From positions 310,001 through 374,000 of the forward strand of contig NZ_JAGKQQ010000002.1 in assembly GCF_017939745.1 (NCBI RefSeq): 64,000 nucleotides of DNA. Reading direction: 5' to 3'. The notes below the pieces were generated by a model, which made no database searches, was not told the DNA's origin, and was given only the letters and a program-made list of their open reading frames with translations. The position numbers and the translations under genes are program-made. The DNA comes from Gemmata palustris (GTDB lineage Bacteria > Planctomycetota > Planctomycetia > Gemmatales > Gemmataceae). Positions 2,021-8,013 of this stretch are shown piece by piece. Position 1 is the first letter of the stretch; each line of letters opens with the position of its first letter.

Positions 2021-3883
2021 TTAATAGCGTGGGCGCCCGGGCCAGAGCGGTTTATCGGGAAAACCCCGAAAATCGTGCCCGACCCACACCCACCAGACCG
2101 CCACCGGAACGCCCTCTTCGCGGTGAACTACTAAAGTTGGTAGTTCCACCCGCCCGAAGACCCCGGCGTCGGCGGGGAGTCCGTCCCCCACGAACACGAA
2201 CGTGCGCCCGCGGAAGGCTTGCGCGTCGGCCAGCGGGTTCGGGTGCCACACGTCGTACTGACTGTGCCGGTCGGCCATTGCCAGCCCGAACGAGTACGTC
2301 TCCGGGTGCCCCGTGCAGTACACCCCGAGTGCCCCGGGCACGTTCCACACGGTGCCGGCCACGAGCGGCTCCTCGCCCGTTTCCGCCTGAATGCGCGCGC
2401 GGATCGTGTCCACCTCGCGTGCGAGCGTTTTCCACCCGCGGAGGCGCGCGGTCGGGTCGAGTTTGCGGATCGGCGTCGGGTCTTTTTCCGTCGGCGGCCC
2501 CGCAGCCGAAGCGAGCGCGGAGCGCATCAGCCCCGGGTAATGCACGAGGGTCGAGAGCGCGAGGCCGACCGCGACCCCACCACTCACGAAGCGCGCAACG
2601 AACTTGTGATTCCGCCCCCCGAGCTGGTCGCGCACCCACGCGACGCACAGCACGAACCCGGTGACGTAAGCGGCGGCGGGCCAGTTGATCTGCCCGGACG
2701 CTTTGAAGCTCGCGACGGCGAACACGCACCACACCGGCACCGACGTCCACCACAGGAACGCGACCGCCGGGTCCGCCGCGCGCCGGGCGCGCCACGCGGC
2801 CGCGACCCACACTGTGAACCACACGCCAATTAAGAAACCCGCTTGACCGACCGCGAACGTGAGTGGACCGAACCAGCGGATGCCGCTCCCGCCGGTCCCC
2901 GCGGCTTGCGTGCCGACGTGCCGGAACGTCACCCAGTCGTTCGCCCAGTTCCACAACAGGACCGGTACCAACCCCGCAGCGGACCCGAGCGCGAACACCC
3001 AAAAACCGGGGTGCTTCAACTCGTCGCGCCGCGTGAACAACAAGTAACCGAACACCCCGCACGGGAGCAGTACCATCGGGTACTTCGCGAGCACCCCGAG
3101 TGCCGAACAGACCGCGGCGAGCAACCACCAGGGGAGGGGGAAACCTACCCCCCCGGCCCCCCTCCCTGAAGGGAAGGGGGAGCAGGCGCGCGATTTCTCT
3201 GTGCGTGCGGCTACGTCAGTCGATAATTCCTTCTCCCCCTTCCCTTCAGGGAGGGGGGCGGGGGGGGTAAGTTCCCCCCTCTCCAACCCCTTCCATACGC
3301 CGATCGCGGCCCAGCACCAGCACGCCAGGAACGGCGGGTCGATGGTCATTAGCACCGCGCCCGCGATCACGGGCGGGAGCGTCATTGCGAGTGCGACCGT
3401 AGCGAGTGCGGCGCGGTGGCTCTTGAGCGTCGAAGCAGTCAGGACGTACCACCCCGCGAGGAGCGCCGCGTGACACGCGATCGCGGGCAGGCGCACGGCG
3501 AGCATCAGAGACCCGGTGAGCGCCTCACTCGCGGGGCCGAACAGTTCACACGAAGCCCGGATCAGCCACGCGACCAGCGGCCCCTTGCTGTAGTAGCTCC
3601 ACGCGAGGTGGCGCGACCACTGCCAGTAGTGGGCCTCGTCGGGCGATAGATCGAGCGGACAGTTGAAGGCCAGGTACACGAGGTGGAACACGACCGACGC
3701 GAGGATCAAGCCGAGCGCGATCCGTTTACAGGCGCGGTCGGTAAGTTTCCCCGCGAACGAATCCGTCGCCCCGGCGGGCACCCGCACGGCGATCGGGTTC
3801 AGACTTGGCACCATCGGCACGGCCCCATTGTTGCAACTGCGCTCGGAACCGAAGTCGATAAACCCTGGGGCCGAAACCGTCAA
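2021..3883 (-). CDS. GT39 (PMT-like) membrane glycosyltransferase with in-frame palindromic insertion
   Basis: A 620-residue multi-pass membrane protein of the dolichyl-phosphate-mannose/ArnT-like GT-C class, which moves a sugar from a lipid-phosphate donor to an acceptor on the outer face of the inner membrane. The signature is an acidic first loop: a SPDEAHYWQW stretch about 80 residues in, followed by SKGPLVAW. About ten hydrophobic helices follow, and the soluble C-terminal part reads as periplasmic. Residues around 200-250 are odd: a hydrophilic, low-complexity stretch of Pro, Gly and Lys encoded by a large inverted repeat (3131-3281), which keeps the frame open. The start at 3883 gives a long leader; the Met at about residue 24 is an alternative. 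Donor and acceptor cannot be read from the sequence. Confidence 0.85.
   Translation of the reverse strand: MTVSAPGFIDFGSERSCNNGAVPMVPSLNPIAVRVPAGATDSFAGKLTDRACKRIALGLILASVVFHLVYLAFNCPLDLSPDEAHYWQWSRHLAWSYYSKGPLVAWLIRASCELFGPASEALTGSLMLAVRLPAIACHAALLAGWYVLTASTLKSHRAALATVALAMTLPPVIAGAVLMTIDPPFLACWCWAAIGVWKGLERGELTPPAPLPEGKGEKELSTDVAARTEKSRACSPFPSGRGAGGVGFPLPWWLLAAVCSALGVLAKYPMVLLPCGVFGYLLFTRRDELKHPGFWVFALGSAAGLVPVLLWNWANDWVTFRHVGTQAAGTGGSGIRWFGPLTFAVGQAGFLIGVWFTVWVAAAWRARRAADPAVAFLWWTSVPVWCVFAVASFKASGQINWPAAAYVTGFVLCVAWVRDQLGGRNHKFVARFVSGGVAVGLALSTLVHYPGLMRSALASAAGPPTEKDPTPIRKLDPTARLRGWKTLAREVDTIRARIQAETGEEPLVAGTVWNVPGALGVYCTGHPETYSFGLAMADRHSQYDVWHPNPLADAQAFRGRTFVFVGDGLPADAGVFGRVELPTLVVHREEGVPVAVWWVWVGHDFRGFPDKPLWPGRPRY
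3131..3281. repeat. imperfect inverted repeat inserted in frame within the GT39 gene
   Basis: Two G/C-rich arms of about 50 bases (3131-3184 and 3231-3281) are near-perfect reverse complements, with a 46-base loop between them. Both arms carry the core CTCCCTGAAGGGAAGGGGG or its complement. The element sits inside a coding sequence and is translated as an extra hydrophilic loop between membrane segments. Confidence 0.85.
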
Positions 3884-3969
3884 CCCGAATCGCGCCGCCC
3901 TCCGAGCTTCCCACCGCGCGCGAAACCACTTATCATTCCACTAGAATCACGAACCCGTGCGAACCGAGC

Positions 3970-3987
3970 CAGTGCCCGCGGGCACTG
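3970..3987. promoter_or_regulatory. perfect 18-bp palindrome upstream of the MoxR ATPase gene
   Basis: CAGTGCCCGCGGGCACTG is perfectly self-complementary and lies 38 bases before the MoxR start codon, in the gap between divergent genes. It could be an operator for a dimeric regulator or a stem in the leader RNA. There is no T tract, so it is not a typical terminator. Confidence 0.4.
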
Positions 3988-4025
3988 TTAATTCACCTCA
4001 TTTATTTCAGGAAGCCGACCCCGTT

Positions 4026-5063
4026 ATGCCGCCTGCCACAAAAGCTCCGTCCGTGAACCCCGAAGAACTCTCGCTGGGCGACCTGCAAGCCGAAGCCGAA
4101 ACGATCCGCAAGCGGATCAACCGGTTCCGCGAGTCGCTCGGCCGGTTCTTCGTGAACAAGCAAGAGATCATCGACCTGATGTGCGTGGCCGGTGTCGCGC
4201 AGGAGCCGCTCCTGCTCATCGGCCCGCCGGGGACCGCGAAGTCCGACATCGTGGTGAAGTTCAAGGACGCGCTCGGCATCGAGCAGGGCGACTACTTCGA
4301 GTACATGCTCACGCGGTTCACCGAGCCGAGCGAAATCATCGGCGCCATCGACATCAAGGAACTGCGCGACGGGAAGTACATCCGCCGCAAGGACGGCAAG
4401 CTGCCCACCGCGAAGCTCGTGTTCCTCGACGAAATCTTCAAGTCGAACTCCGCCATCCTGAACATCCTGCTCACGATCATCAACGAGCGGAAGTTCTACC
4501 AGGAGGGCAAGCCCGAACCGGTGCCGCTGCGGATCATGTTCGCGGCGACCAACGAGATCCCCGAACAGGGCGAACTCGCGGCCCTCAAGGACCGCTTCGT
4601 GCTGAAAGTGCAGAGCCGCAGCGTGCAGGAGGAATACTTCTCCGAACTCATTGACGCGGGTCTGCAGGGCGAAGCGTACAAGGGGCTGAACCAGAAGCCG
4701 TGGGTCGAGGGACACGCGACGCTCGACGACTTCCTGAAGGCGAACCGGTACATGACGCACCTGTTCTCGCGCAAGACCGGCGACGGGCGCGGGGAGGAGG
4801 AGAACGACCGGCACCGGTTCTTCCCGGCGGACGTGTTCAAGGAGTTCCAGCGCCTCGTGAAGACGCTCGTGCGCGAGGACAAGATCTTCATCAGCGACCG
4901 CAAACTGGTGAAGCTCTACAAACTGTTCCGCGTGCGGTCGTGGCTGTTCAGCGGCGGCGCGGTAACGAAAGATGACCTGCGCCTGCTCGCCTACCTCGGC
5001 GAAACGCACCAGGAAATCGAGCACCTGCGCACGAAGGTACCGGAATACCTCGGCGACGCATAG
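4026..5063 (+). CDS. MoxR-type AAA+ ATPase (RavA-like)
   Basis: A 345-residue AAA+ protein. Walker A reads GPPGTAKSD (residues 66-74), in the TAK form usual for MoxR proteins. Walker B is LVFLDEIF at 131-138, followed by a sensor-1 type FAATNE segment. MoxR ATPases typically remodel a partner protein carrying a von Willebrand A domain, as in RavA-ViaA. The ATG at 4026 is preceded by an AGGAAG ribosome site at 4009; longer in-frame starts lack one. The nearest VWA protein is the Ro60-like protein at 6415 on the same strand, separated by a small gene and an array of tRNA-like RNAs, so the ATPase may act on it. That pairing is inferred from context only. Confidence 0.9.
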   Translation: MPPATKAPSVNPEELSLGDLQAEAETIRKRINRFRESLGRFFVNKQEIIDLMCVAGVAQEPLLLIGPPGTAKSDIVVKFKDALGIEQGDYFEYMLTRFTEPSEIIGAIDIKELRDGKYIRRKDGKLPTAKLVFLDEIFKSNSAILNILLTIINERKFYQEGKPEPVPLRIMFAATNEIPEQGELAALKDRFVLKVQSRSVQEEYFSELIDAGLQGEAYKGLNQKPWVEGHATLDDFLKANRYMTHLFSRKTGDGRGEEENDRHRFFPADVFKEFQRLVKTLVREDKIFISDRKLVKLYKLFRVRSWLFSGGAVTKDDLRLLAYLGETHQEIEHLRTKVPEYLGDA

Positions 5064-5071
5064 GAACGCGC

Positions 5072-5500
5072 ATGGCCGAAGTCACCACGTTCGCTCACGG
5101 CTACCACTACGGTGATTACTCCGGCGTGATCTTCTACGGTCCACCCACGAACGGTTTTTGGGTGGACCGACTCGCGGTGAGTGACTGTTACATCTCCCCG
5201 CTATTCCACGCAGTTCTTGATCGTGCGTGGCGGGAAAGCGGCGGAGAATCCGTCCCGCGCGTGGCATCCGAGTGGAACACGTTAACCGGTTGGGCAAATC
5301 TCGGAGCGGGCGTTGTCCCCCTTCAATCCGTGGATGCAGAAGATATTGCTCGGGCATTTACGACCGTGAGCGAGTCGGACCTCGCACAACACGTCACGGG
5401 CTCGACGATTGAGGAGTGTTTGGCTTGTGCCTGGACTATTCAGGAATTCATTTGCGCGCGGCTGACCGAAAGCTCGATCGTTTACATTGAGAGCGACTGA
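5072..5500 (+). CDS. unknown 142-residue protein in the MoxR/Ro60 locus
   Basis: Starts 8 bases after the MoxR stop with an AGGAAC site just upstream, so it is probably co-translated with it. The protein is acidic and soluble, with no signal peptide or membrane segment. It is aromatic near the N-terminus (YHYGDYSG, FYGPPTNGFW) and has two Cys near the C-terminus. I do not recognise the family. Base composition is visibly lower in GC than its neighbours, which may indicate a different origin. A 7-bp stem (5491-5497 with 5507-5513) overlaps the stop codon and might attenuate transcription before the RNA array, but it lacks a clean U run. Confidence 0.6.
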   Translation: MAEVTTFAHGYHYGDYSGVIFYGPPTNGFWVDRLAVSDCYISPLFHAVLDRAWRESGGESVPRVASEWNTLTGWANLGAGVVPLQSVDAEDIARAFTTVSESDLAQHVTGSTIEECLACAWTIQEFICARLTESSIVYIESD

Positions 5501-5636
5501 GGCACCGTCGCTCAGTTGATTTTGCGAACGGCACGTCGCAAGCCGATTGACTTCCACCGCGACGAAACGCCACCGCCAAGAATTTCGCGAACCTCCCCCG
5601 CCCTTCCCTGTCCATTATCCCGAACGCCACGAGCGG

Positions 5637-5778
5637 GTCGCACCCAACGCGACGAGCTTACAAACACAATCCCTTGCTCAGGGAGAGGTCACAGGTTCGA
5701 CTCCTGTTCCGTCCACTTACGGGCGGGTAGCTCAGTGGTAGAGCGCTCAGTGCCAATTGCTCGCACAACTCGTGCGGC
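5637..5778 (+). ncRNA. permuted tRNA-like RNA 1 (YrlA/Y RNA-like)
   Basis: The unit runs outer strand, inner strand, tRNA 3' part, short loop, tRNA 5' part, inner strand, outer strand. T arm: ACAGG 5691-5695, TTCGACT loop, CCTGT 5703-5707. The 3' acceptor strand TCCGTCC (5708-5714) pairs across a 6-base loop with GGGCGGG (5721-5727), with two G-U pairs. The D arm is GCTC 5730-5733 with GAGC 5741-5744 and a GG-containing loop. Flanking helices: GTCGCAC 5637-5643 with GTGCGGC 5772-5778, and CGAGC 5653-5657 with GCTCG 5759-5763. An extra hairpin (5670-5684) replaces a normal anticodon arm. No CCA end is encoded. This order is that of YrlA-type Y RNAs; a permuted tRNA gene is the alternative. Confidence 0.75.
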
Positions 5779-5813
5779 GCGATCGCGGTGTTCACTTGCA
5801 CTTATTCGGGTAC

Positions 5814-5960
5814 AGCCCGTACCCCACTGTGGAAGCGTACAAACAGTTAACCCGACGGTCGCAGGTTCGACTCCTGCCCCCACGCCCTCAAAAGCGTGAG
5901 GTAGCTCAGTGGGTGGAGCTTCGGATCAAGTTTTCACCGCTTCACGAACTCGTGCGGGCT
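5814..5960 (+). ncRNA. permuted tRNA-like RNA 2 (YrlA/Y RNA-like)
   Basis: Same order as unit 1. Outer helix: AGCCCGTAC 5814-5822 with GTGCGGGCT 5952-5960. Inner helix: GAAGCG 5832-5837 with CGCTTC 5938-5943. T arm: GCAGG 5861-5865, TTCGACT loop, CCTGC 5873-5877. Acceptor: CCCCACG 5878-5884 with CGTGAGG 5895-5901 across a 10-base loop, one A-C mismatch. D arm: GCTC 5904-5907 with GAGC 5916-5919, loop containing GGG. A short helix in the anticodon-stem position pairs TCGG 5921-5924 with CCGA 5852-5855. The triplet GTT followed by AA lies just before it, as in tRNA-Asn, but no T precedes it as position 33 would require. Confidence 0.78.
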
Positions 5961-5981
5961 TATTTTGTGATTACTTCAGAG

Positions 5982-6142
5982 ATTGTCCGTACCCCACAAG
6001 GAAAGCGTACAAACCCTAAGTTTCAGCACGCGAAAGCGTATGCGGGTTCGAGTCCCGCCGTCGCCCGGGCACGGGCGATGTGGCGAAATGGCAAACGCAC
6101 TGAATAAAAAGTTGAACCGCTTCCCGAACTTGTACGGACGAT
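5982..6142 (+). ncRNA. permuted tRNA-like RNA 3, Leu-like with long variable arm
   Basis: Outer helix: GTCCGTAC 5985-5992 with GTACGGAC 6132-6139, extendable by about three pairs. Inner helix: GGAAAGCG 6000-6007 with CGCTTCC 6118-6124, one bulged A. Anticodon-stem helix: CTGAA 6100-6104 with TTCAG 6022-6026, fully paired. Variable arm: ACGC, GAAA, GCGT (6028-6039). T arm: GCGGG 6042-6046 with CCCGC 6054-6058, loop TTCGAGT. Acceptor: CGTCGCC 6059-6065 with GGCGATG 6074-6080 across an 8-base loop. The D arm GCGAAATGGCAAACGC is typical of tRNA-Leu, and TAA, a Leu anticodon, sits in the loop region. Position 33 would not be U, so normal decoding is doubtful. Confidence 0.8.
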
Positions 6143-6163
6143 ATTTTTCGATCACTGAAACCA

Positions 6164-6347
6164 ACCCGTATCCGATCTCAAACGGCGTACACACTTTTCC
6201 GGTCTTGAACCGGCAATCGGGCAACCGATTCGTGGGTTCGAATCCCACCTCCACCTCTGACGGTGGAGTGGCCGAGTGGTCGAAGGCAGCCGCTCCGCGA
6301 GGAGCAAAGTGTCCCTCACGGGACTCGCCGGTGGAACTTGTACGGGT
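6164..6347 (+). ncRNA. permuted tRNA-like RNA 4, Ser-like with long variable arm
   Basis: Outer helix: ACCCGTAT 6164-6171 with GTACGGGT 6340-6347. Inner helix: CGGCG 6183-6187 with CGCCG 6326-6330. Variable arm: ATCGG, GCAA, CCGAT (6216-6229). T arm: GTGGG 6232-6236 with CCCAC 6244-6248, loop TTCGAAT. Acceptor: CTCCACC 6249-6255 with GGTGGAG 6262-6268, perfect, across a 6-base loop. D arm: GCC 6271-6273 with GGC 6285-6287, as in tRNA-Ser. CTTGA, containing the Ser anticodon TGA, lies before CCGGC. Two additional hairpins (6293-6304 and 6311-6324) decorate the 3' flank and are absent from the other units. Confidence 0.78.
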
Positions 6348-6356
6348 GGATCTCTT

Positions 6357-6379
6357 ACGGCCGCGTCAGCGGCCGTTTT
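6357..6379 (+). terminator. intrinsic terminator closing the tRNA-like RNA array
   Basis: An 8-bp perfect GC-rich stem, ACGGCCGC with GCGGCCGT, closed by a GTCA tetraloop and followed by TTTT. It lies 9 bases after the outer helix of RNA 4 and 35 bases before the Ro60 start codon, so the RNA array probably ends here with some read-through into the protein gene. Confidence 0.8.
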
Positions 6380-6414: not shown

Positions 6415-8013
6415 ATGACGATGACGAAGACCGAGGCGGATTTGCGGCTGTCGATGCTGAACAGCCTCCTCACCTGCCCGCACCGGCGGTTGGGCTTGGT
6501 TCACCCGCTGCACGCGGAACTCGTGAAGCAGGACCCGCGGTTCTACGTGCGCCTCGCGGCGTGGTACGCGGACCACGGCGACGTGCGCGACCACAAGGAA
6601 ATGTTCATCGTCACGCTCGCGTTGAGCGACTTCCCGGGCCACCGCGACACCGGTCTGGCGATGCTGCGTGAGCTGCCGCCGTACCAGGTCGGCCGCGTCA
6701 TCGACTTCATCCACGGTCGCAAGGAAGACGTCGCGATCGAAGTGGACCGCAAGCCAGACGACGTGCCGGCGACCGCGTTCCGCCCGAAGATCGACCGGAA
6801 GGCGTCGCGCGGCAAGAAGCCGGGCAAGCCGAAGCTCGCCGAAGGCGGAACGGTTACGCTCACGGACACCTTCGGGCTGTTCCGCAACGTGCCGCGGTCG
6901 CTGAAGACGGAGGTCGTGCGCTACCTGCGCGAGCGGGAGGCGGACGCCGACTGGTTCGATTCCACCGCGATCACCGCGCGCAAGACGCTGAAGCGGCTCT
7001 ACGCGCTTCTGCACGTCAAGCCGGGTCCGCGTGCGCAGGCCGTGTTGTTCGACGAGCGCCCGCCGGAGGGGTCGAAGCTCGCGGGCCTGAAGGATCTGGC
7101 GAAGGCCGAGACCGCGGACGAGCAGGCCAAACTCATCGCGATCCACAACATCCCGTTCCGGGTGGCGATCGGGCTGGTGAAGGCGGTCAACCCGAAGGTG
7201 CTGACGGCGCTCGTGGGCCGGATGTCACCGCAGGAGGTCATCAACAACCTCGACATGCTCCGCAAGCGCGGCGCGTTCGAGGACACCGGCGTGAAGGCAC
7301 TCATCGAGTCGAAGCTGGAGTCCGCGAAGACGGCGACCCGGGTCAGCGCGTTCAAGGCCGAGAAAGCGCTGGAGTCGGTCCCCGTGAGCGCGGCGGTTCG
7401 GCAGAAGCTCGAAGCGGTCGCGGACTCGCAGGTGAAGGCGCGCGGGCGGATCGCGCGGCCGACGGCGCTGCTGATCGACAAGTCCGGTTCGATGAGCCAG
7501 GCCATCGAGATCGGTAAGCGGCTCGGGTCGCTGTTGGCGGCGGTCGCGGACAAGGAGCTGTTCGTGTACGCCTTCGACTCGATCGCGTACCCGGTCGAAT
7601 CGGCCGGGCCGGAACTGTCCGCGTGGGAGCGGGCACTGACGGGCATCACGGCGGGGGGTAACACCTCGGTCGGGGTGGGCATCGACCAGCTGCGCCGGAA
7701 GAAGCAGCGGGTCGAGCAGATCGTCGTCGTCACGGACGAGGGCGAGAACGCGGAGCCGCGGTTCGTGCCAGCGCTGTTGAAGTACCGCGAGGAACTGAAG
7801 ACCGATCCCACTATTTGCTTCGTGAAAGTTTCGGGGGCGACCACGCAACTGGAAGACGAGTGCAAGAAGGCGGGGATCGCGGTGGACGCCTACCAGTTCA
7901 ACGGGGACTACTACGCGCTGCCGAACTTGGTCCCGCTGCTCGCCCGCCCGAGCAAGCTGGAACTGCTCCAGGAAATCCTGGAGTACCCGCTCCCGGTCCG
8001 CCGGGCGGGATGA
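6415..8013 (+). CDS. Ro60/Rsr-like TROVE-VWA RNA-binding protein
   Basis: A 532-residue protein. The N-terminal two thirds is helical and repeat-like, with the order of segments seen in TROVE domains. These include a DPRFYVRLAAWYADHGD stretch near residue 40, an ALLHVKPGPRA segment, and a central PFRVAIGLV...MSPQEVINNL block resembling the 'MPLTALIRNL' region of Ro60. The C-terminal third is a von Willebrand A domain with a MIDAS: DKSGSM (Asp355), Thr417 after GGN, and Asp441 in VVTDEGE. Ro60 proteins form rings that bind Y RNAs and misfolded RNA ends and work with 3'-5' exonucleases. An AAGGAGG ribosome site at 6401-6407 fixes the ATG at 6415, although the frame is open further upstream through the RNA array. 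The adjacent Y RNA-like array strongly supports the call; the sequence itself is divergent. Confidence 0.8.
   Translation: MTMTKTEADLRLSMLNSLLTCPHRRLGLVHPLHAELVKQDPRFYVRLAAWYADHGDVRDHKEMFIVTLALSDFPGHRDTGLAMLRELPPYQVGRVIDFIHGRKEDVAIEVDRKPDDVPATAFRPKIDRKASRGKKPGKPKLAEGGTVTLTDTFGLFRNVPRSLKTEVVRYLREREADADWFDSTAITARKTLKRLYALLHVKPGPRAQAVLFDERPPEGSKLAGLKDLAKAETADEQAKLIAIHNIPFRVAIGLVKAVNPKVLTALVGRMSPQEVINNLDMLRKRGAFEDTGVKALIESKLESAKTATRVSAFKAEKALESVPVSAAVRQKLEAVADSQVKARGRIARPTALLIDKSGSMSQAIEIGKRLGSLLAAVADKELFVYAFDSIAYPVESAGPELSAWERALTGITAGGNTSVGVGIDQLRRKKQRVEQIVVVTDEGENAEPRFVPALLKYREELKTDPTICFVKVSGATTQLEDECKKAGIAVDAYQFNGDYYALPNLVPLLARPSKLELLQEILEYPLPVRRAG

Follow-up and report, generated by a model that had tools for sequence, protein, structure and literature searches.

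A 64,000-nucleotide stretch of the Gemmata palustris genome (the window) carries, at positions 5635 to 6348 of the + strand, four tandem tRNA-like units in which the T arm and 3′ acceptor strand precede the 5′ acceptor strand and D arm. This is very probably a bacterial Ro60 (Rsr) ribonucleoprotein locus, whose four RNAs are Y RNAs with interchangeable tRNA-mimic heads. An original prediction from the sequence had described four such permuted units, and all are present; the present analysis adds a two-helix basal stem, an adjoining gene for a putative diverged Ro60, and anticodon-stem and variable-arm remnants that flank the tRNA-like modules. Covariation, the basal stem and the adjoining Ro60 gene together argue for a bacterial Y RNA/Ro60 locus and not for real permuted tRNA genes.

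The proposed units and their parts are listed below; labels such as Leu-like refer to body shape and similarity to host tRNAs and make no use of the anticodon.

5635-5780, + strand: Y RNA unit 1, permuted class I tRNA-like head; outer stem formed by 5635-5643 and 5772-5780; at 5669-5685 an anticodon-like hairpin with loop TTGCTCA and 4/5 pairs; T arm 5691-5707; 3′ acceptor 5708-5714; linker 5715-5720; 5′ acceptor 5721-5727; D arm 5730-5744.
5814-5960, + strand: Y RNA unit 2, whose class I head has its permutation point in the anticodon loop; outer stem formed by 5814-5822 and 5952-5960; 39-43 strand 5851-5855 and 27-31 strand 5921-5925 (4/5 pairs); T arm 5861-5877 and D arm 5904-5919; acceptor formed by 5878-5884 and 5895-5901.
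5984-6140, + strand: Y RNA unit 3, whose class II head is Leu-like and has its permutation point in the anticodon loop; 39-43 strand 6022-6026 and 27-31 strand 6100-6104; T arm 6042-6058, preceded by a variable-arm hairpin at 6028-6039; acceptor formed by 6059-6065 and 6074-6080; D arm 6083-6098.
6163-6348, + strand: Y RNA unit 4, whose class II head is Ser-like and has its permutation point between the D and anticodon arms; at 6199-6213 an anticodon-like hairpin with a loop of 5 bases; T arm 6232-6248, preceded by a variable arm at 6216-6229; acceptor formed by 6249-6255 and 6262-6268; D arm 6271-6287.
6357-6376, + strand: intrinsic terminator-like hairpin, then a T-rich tail.

As predicted, each 3′ acceptor strand pairs with the 5′ acceptor strand downstream of it (7/7, 6/7, 7/7 and 7/7 pairs in units 1 to 4); the linkers in between measure 6, 10, 8 and 6 bases. 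The T loop of every unit retains TTCGA and its D loop GG, and the array is closed by a terminator-like hairpin. A strict pattern, consisting of a 5-bp T stem with a TTCRANY loop, the adjoining 3′ acceptor, a short linker, the 5′ acceptor and a D stem, matched four times in the window with both strands searched, always within 5691-6287; 60 dinucleotide shuffles of the whole window gave 10 matches in total (mean 0.17, maximum 2). With borders set by us, units 1 and 2 measure 146 and 147 nucleotides (nt) and units 3 and 4 157 and 186 nt; PMC8394870 gives a range of 90-150 nt for Y RNAs. R1, a covariance model made from the permuted units with those of the window included, scores the four at 120.0, 121.5, 126.4 and 110.2 bits, and the fold z values of units 3 and 4 are -4.80 and -3.74.

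Every unit of the window is built on a two-helix basal stem around a conserved internal loop, and this stem encloses the permuted head. In unit 2, for instance, the outer helix pairs AGCCCGTAC (5814-5822) with GTGCGGGCT (5952-5960); further in, an internal loop sets CCCAC opposite CGAACTC and is followed by GAAGCG paired with CGCTTC. We read units at 24 of 26 loci, that is, at all except L080 and L082, and found 42 at 15 of these 24 Gemmataceae loci, one to four per locus, with order and class conserved across species. Alignment A2 comprises 32 of the 42 and excludes seven near-copies of the window (L084, L085) together with L088_u1, L091_u2 and L078_u2.

Covariation in these relatives shows the secondary structure of the units. 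Both-side changes occur in 21 of 29 base pairs, against a mean of 14.4 after shuffling, and none of 500 shuffles reached that number. Paired cells amount to 91.1%, compared with 72.6% in shuffled alignments and 36-45% in slid versions, the latter control favouring the structure because it was read from the 32 aligned sequences themselves. The outer helix has 91.7% of its cells paired and both-side changes in 6 of 9 pairs, the inner helix 85.9% and 4 of 6; helix 5 reads 65.6% because the D stems of unit-4 type are misaligned in A2. Run on A2 without constraint, RNAalifold recovered four helices, namely the outer, the inner, the T and the acceptor helix, which comprise 24 pairs and show both-side changes in 17 of them; it did not find the D stem. 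Units had been chosen by their T and D stems, so that counting those stems would be circular. As for the acceptor, 33 of 41 distinct units form all seven pairs when the linker is re-maximised, against a mean of 3.0 and a maximum of 9 over 500 shuffles.

The gene next to the array is the following.

6415-8013, + strand: predicted diverged Ro60/Rsr protein of 532 amino acids (aa), with a helical region and a C-terminal vWA domain.

Judging from its predicted structure, this gene encodes a very diverged bacterial Ro60/Rsr protein. At E 0.01 the protein has no match in Pfam, NCBIfam or PADLOC, and a looser E value brings up VWA_2 alone (0.023). Its predicted model (pLDDT 81.7, pTM 0.63) gave only Ro60/TROVE chains as the thirteen best Foldseek matches. 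By Z score, too, the ten best are all Ro60/TROVE (Z 17.2-19.5 over 418-439 residues), led by 2NVO (Z 19.5, rmsd 4.4, 439 residues aligned), and the matches ranked next reach Z 15.6 over about 160 residues of the vWA domain only. The family profile matches two PDB TROVE sequences (E 0.004), and hhalign of the family against ten planctomycete TROVE-type proteins gave 99.1% (E 1.3e-18); alignment A3 took 10 of 21 loci, an ORF of at least 400 aa and a D.SG.M motif being required. Residues D355, S357 and S359 are invariant across 23 homologues. Searched against Pfam, the 23 family members matched vWA_Ro60 in 7 cases (best 0.00054), VWA_2 in 19 (best 0.00021) and VWA_CoxE in 5 (best 7.9e-6). Among the relatives, the Ro60 ORF at L080:2718-5435 contains a LAGLIDADG-domain intein near the position of residues 351-357 of the window's protein, at the DxSxS motif of the vWA domain, and those of L074, L076 and L077 lie in long open frames of 833-865 aa, with no scaffold match in the sequence examined.

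RNA scaffold and protein tend to occur in the same genomes. Of 83 genomes of the family, 22 have diverged Ro60 and 21 have full-length R1 scaffold matches of at least 45 bits, and by hand count 20 genomes have both; the matches in this count need not adjoin Ro60, and some lie in tRNA arrays. G042 is the sole genome at 45 bits or more that lacks diverged Ro60, and its match adjoins an Rsr-type gene (vWA_Ro60 1.2e-15; TROVE 19.4 bits, cut-off 23), a YrlA above its gathering score and rtcB. A useful contrast is offered by L168:333-3867, a Gemmataceae genome in which an Rsr-type gene, YrlA (74.7 bits) and rtcB lie together. The closest named relative of the diverged Ro60 is that of Gemmata sp. IIL30 (97%). 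The protein also occurs in records named Phycisphaeraceae, Desulfococcaceae, Desulfobacterales and Deltaproteobacteria, some of which are duplicate contigs of earlier loci, and R1 at E 0.01 matches 17 of 23 loci among these wider records. Across the phylum, 32 of 392 genomes contain TROVE and 53 give R1 matches at E 1e-6, 28 of the 32 among them (hand count). When R1 was the only query, 21 of the 29 phylum loci looked at besides the window's own had a Ro60 gene within approximately 1.5 kb, 2 diverged and 19 of TROVE type. YrlA matches at E ≤0.5 were found at 15 of 20 TROVE loci of other Planctomycetota, single matches being partly weak, and 10 of those 15 had two or three. One relative shows an interrupted unit: a Y RNA unit of L075 is split between T arm and D arm by an ORF (3067-4449) that resembles, by eye, an IS66-type transposase.

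Several observations weigh against a Ro60/Y RNA locus. On the protein side, the 6415-8013 product matches neither Pfam TROVE (PF05731) nor NCBIfam Rsr, the Pfam TROVE model has no match in the genome, and some of the 23 family members match VWA_CoxE better than vWA_Ro60. Linkage is incomplete, as G011 and G018 have diverged Ro60 and no full-length match of 45 bits (G018 has a short-headed scaffold of 40.1 bits beside its Ro60), and no scaffold match was found in the sequence examined at nine diverged-Ro60 loci (L073, L074, L076, L077 and L079-L083), of which L073, L080 and L082 run to contig ends. Six of the 23 wider loci likewise have no R1 match, three of them being genomes among those nine. 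Conversely, L164:1966-2699 (- strand) is a four-unit array with no Ro60 within its 5-kb stretch; that genome carries Ro60 genes on other contigs. Folded as single sequences, unit 3 lacks a proper D arm and the minimum-energy structure of unit 4 has no T arm. Finally, no unit of the window reaches an Rfam gathering score (YrlA, RF02553: cut-off 69 bits, best 36.2). In the proposed comparison with the Rfam YrlA model, units 1 and 2 give sub-threshold matches (36.2 bits, E 5.1e-6, and 32.0 bits, E 8.6e-5); the scores of 16.7 bits for unit 3 and 17.1 bits for unit 4, both at E about 2, do not rise above chance level. The broader claim, that these are RNAs of the YrlA kind mimicking different tRNAs, is upheld by the covariation, the adjoining Ro60 gene and the conserved arrays of the relatives.

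The heads retain a good deal of tRNA structure. Unit 2 is Asn/Lys-like in its orthologues, as read by eye, units 3 (Leu-like) and 4 (Ser-like) have long variable arms, and units 1 and 4 keep an anticodon-like hairpin. ARAGORN called no tRNA in the window and none in the 42 units as they stand. When units were rejoined in silico in normal order, it called 62 of 64 constructs (40 of 42 units), compared with 64 of 300 mixed-half controls; the joints of the rejoined constructs were picked by pairing and CCA was added, whereas those of the controls were fixed. Its isotype calls track loop sequence and are inconsistent; those given to units 1 to 4 of the window after rejoining (Ser, Met, Val or none, Gln) misfit the bodies. 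In unit-2 and unit-3 types, 27-31 pairs with 39-43 across the opened anticodon loop with 4-5 of 5 pairs in 16 of 16 chosen units, with compensatory changes; L091_u2, which was left out of this tally, has 2 of 5, and unit-1 heads scored in the same way have 3 or 4 of 5. The 39-43 strand of Leu-like units lies exactly 15 bases upstream of the T arm, the length of the variable region, in 9 of 9. An anticodon-like hairpin is present in 9 of 12 unit-1-type heads and in 9 of 12 unit-4-type (Ser-like) heads, 8 of the latter with an 18-base variable region.

Other features of tRNA identity have not been kept. Unit-4-type loops vary (CTTGA, CTCGAAA, CTCAAAA, CTCCAAA, CTTTTAA, CTGAAAA), and the anticodon-position triplets differ between orthologues of unit-1 type and between those of unit-4 type. 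The discriminator is A in 11 of 12 unit-1-type heads, and the 12 heads of unit-4 type divide into 7 with T, 3 with A and 2 with G; that of unit 4 itself is T, as against G in the host tRNA-Ser genes (read by eye). This variation between orthologues argues against both charged tRNAs and anticodon-specific decoys. Compared with 82 distinct host tRNAs, the 5′ pieces share at best 23/25 (unit 1), 19/26 (unit 2) and 22/26 bases (unit 3, Leu, the four closest host tRNAs all being Leu); that of unit 4 is closest to a Pro tRNA (24/27 bases), followed by three Ser (22, 21, 21). The four best host matches of each 3′ piece share just 27-34 of 41-47 bases, tRNA-Ser coming first and then three tRNA-Leu for unit 3. 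These partial matches led us to reject the heads as recent copies of host tRNAs.

Elsewhere, the same scaffold bears heads of other kinds as well: besides permuted tRNAs there are tRNA-like RNAs in normal order, short hairpins and, in one case, a segment that matches the 23S rRNA core. The normal-order Rfam tRNA model matches inside eight R1 units (C1:7843433-7843567, in the G. palustris genome itself, and L167, L169, L170, L171, L212, L220 and L225), six of the matches lacking the model ends, which indicates that the acceptor stem is short or missing there; L078 resembles these heads by eye and yields no ARAGORN call. The C1 unit (= L120:1884-2018, - strand) is a Y scaffold with a normal-order head inside a tRNA array, and since the tRNA model matches this head, it may be annotated as a plain tRNA. 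At L212, a Phycisphaeraceae locus, eight R1 units lie upstream of the Ro60 gene and two more downstream, ten in total; one head there (L212:1796-1987) shows a 19/19 match to G. palustris 23S rRNA, a single case spotted by eye. Among 30 units at eight loci, 9 combine a D stem with a permuted acceptor of 6-7 pairs, and 12 lack a T arm by our criterion; the D-arm flag of this survey is loose and was not used. At L217:1-2423, ten Rfam tRNA matches and one tRNA-Sec match are followed by Y-RNA units just before Ro60. A different scaffold carries two further tandem permuted tRNA-like modules at L154:1300-1650 (- strand; C1 of the same genome, ~985.2-985.55 kb), near an ORF that by eye resembles a CCA-adding enzyme/poly(A) polymerase and with no Ro60 within the 3.1-kb stretch; similar pairs occur in L157, L159 and L160.

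We propose that the two-part basal stem and its conserved internal loop would serve as the Ro60-binding handle, and that the permuted part would be a head folding into the acceptor-T-D elbow of a tRNA. The kept bases of the T and D loops point to an L-shaped fold of the heads. No terminator-like site lies between the units on the + strand, which suggests that the array is probably one transcript, terminated at 6357-6376 and cut into single RNAs. Ro60 may thereby hold a set of tRNA mimics of different structural classes, with the heads gating its ring. The heads, presumably not charged tRNAs, could dock tRNA-recognising enzymes (modification enzymes, PNPase, nucleases), so that Ro60 would be tethered to these enzymes or the enzymes titrated. 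Chen et al. (RNA, 2014) are reported to have found that numerous bacteria encode Y RNAs close to Ro60 and that every such species has one or more of the tRNA-like kind. Two other sources describe a Y RNA that tethers Rsr to PNPase in Deinococcus (PMC7790460, PMC8394870) and YrlA as a substrate of DusA and TruB (PMC8394870).

Among the alternatives, the least improbable is still an unlikely one: that the array is a decoy panel, whose heads bait tRNA-cutting toxins or phage nucleases while Ro60 protects or presents them, isotype variety being its purpose. It would account for features that a generic elbow does not need, such as the 15-base variable region of Leu-like units and the anticodon-like hairpins, and for head content that differs between arrays; competitive inhibition of an anticodon nuclease by YrlA has moreover been suggested (PMC7790460). 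However, the same paper states that YrlA fragments were undetected, so that YrlA is not a substrate of that nuclease, the anticodon-position triplets vary between orthologous units, and PADLOC has no match for Ro60 or for the small ORF at 5072-5500 and just a weak AAA match for the MoxR ATPase upstream (E 0.0028). That ATPase underlies another reading, in which it acts on the 6415-8013 vWA protein as a MoxR-vWA (bpMoxR) conflict system.

3996-5060, upstream of the array: bpMoxR-type AAA ATPase (PF20030, 2.7e-62).

The strong PF20030 match speaks for such a system, to which we give very little credence: ATPase and small ORF accompany the array in 0 of 23 other loci examined (L072, L073, L087 and L093 offering little or no upstream sequence), and both were rejected as parts of the system. 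The vWA domain also ends the 6415-8013 protein, leaving no C-terminal beta-propeller.

True circularly permuted tRNA genes, which in algae and some archaea mature via a circular intermediate, are highly improbable here. The calls by ARAGORN on rejoined constructs and the 27-31/39-43 pairing in units 2 and 3 would fit such genes. Against them, discriminators and triplets vary between orthologues, unit 4 has T in place of the G read in host tRNA-Ser genes, the isotypes do not fit the bodies, canonical tRNAs of the host already serve all 20 amino acids, and the flanks form a conserved basal stem. We therefore rejected this possibility, which the original prediction had mentioned. Hardly more plausible is functionless debris, i.e., tRNAs decayed and scrambled by recombination or mobile elements. 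Y-scaffold units do occur inside tRNA arrays and a transposase-like ORF splits one unit, but strong covariation and the conservation of unit order and class across species oppose decay.

Bacterial Y RNAs with permuted tRNA-like heads are already known; what is unusual in the Ro60/Y RNA locus described here is the diversity of the heads. The four-member array had been thought undescribed, and no description appeared in the titles and abstract openings searched; it is not a one-off, given the one to four units at 15 Gemmataceae loci, the ten of L212 and the YrlA matches, in part weak, at 15 of 20 TROVE loci. Nor did any title or abstract opening report the diverged Ro60 branch or arrays whose heads represent different tRNA classes in two topologies, which is weak evidence of novelty. 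More tentatively, and with the balance tilting against it, one may envisage a modular Ro60 display: a near-invariant Y-RNA scaffold, in up to ten copies beside a diverged Ro60, would repeatedly have acquired its heads from RNAs of the translation apparatus, namely tRNAs of several classes in permuted or normal order and, in one case, the 23S rRNA core, so that Ro60 would present a changing panel of mimics to enzymes or toxins acting on tRNA and ribosome. Bacterial Y RNAs are known tRNA mimics, and one stem reused with many heads addresses the question of what the mimicry is for. One stem, many heads and two topologies, permuted and normal-order, make a natural experiment that separates the presumed requirement of Ro60, the kept stem, from that of a partner, a tRNA-like elbow of any class. 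R1 finds Ro60 loci that protein models miss, and the data suggest that some RNAs called tRNAs within tRNA arrays are Y RNA heads.

The nearest known system is YrlA (RF02553) with Rsr in Salmonella and Deinococcus (RYPER, rsr-yrlBA-rtcBA), with which the window shares an RNA gene beside Ro60, a basal stem made of the 5′ and 3′ ends, and a permuted tRNA-like head that starts with the T arm and continues with 3′ acceptor, 5′ acceptor and D arm. Unlike YrlA, the window has four units, all under the Rfam gathering score, with a conserved loop of their own in the basal stem (CCCNAC opposite GAACTT) and heads of different tRNA classes that include long variable arms and anticodon-like hairpins. Its protein shares with Ro60/Rsr/TROVE proteins the predicted fold over residues 9-514 and the DxSxS motif of the vWA domain, whereas identity is approximately 15% and the Pfam TROVE and NCBIfam Rsr models miss it. 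PMC7159879 describes a MoxR-vWA-beta-propeller ternary system in which the MoxR-linked vWA protein has a C-terminal beta-propeller; the vWA protein of the window has none, and its MoxR is not syntenic. With the permuted tRNA genes of algae and archaea, the array has in common the order of the halves and, in units 2 and 3, the opening in the anticodon loop. In contrast to those genes, its heads sit in a Y scaffold, discriminator and anticodon are not kept, and the locus shows no sign of producing mature tRNAs.
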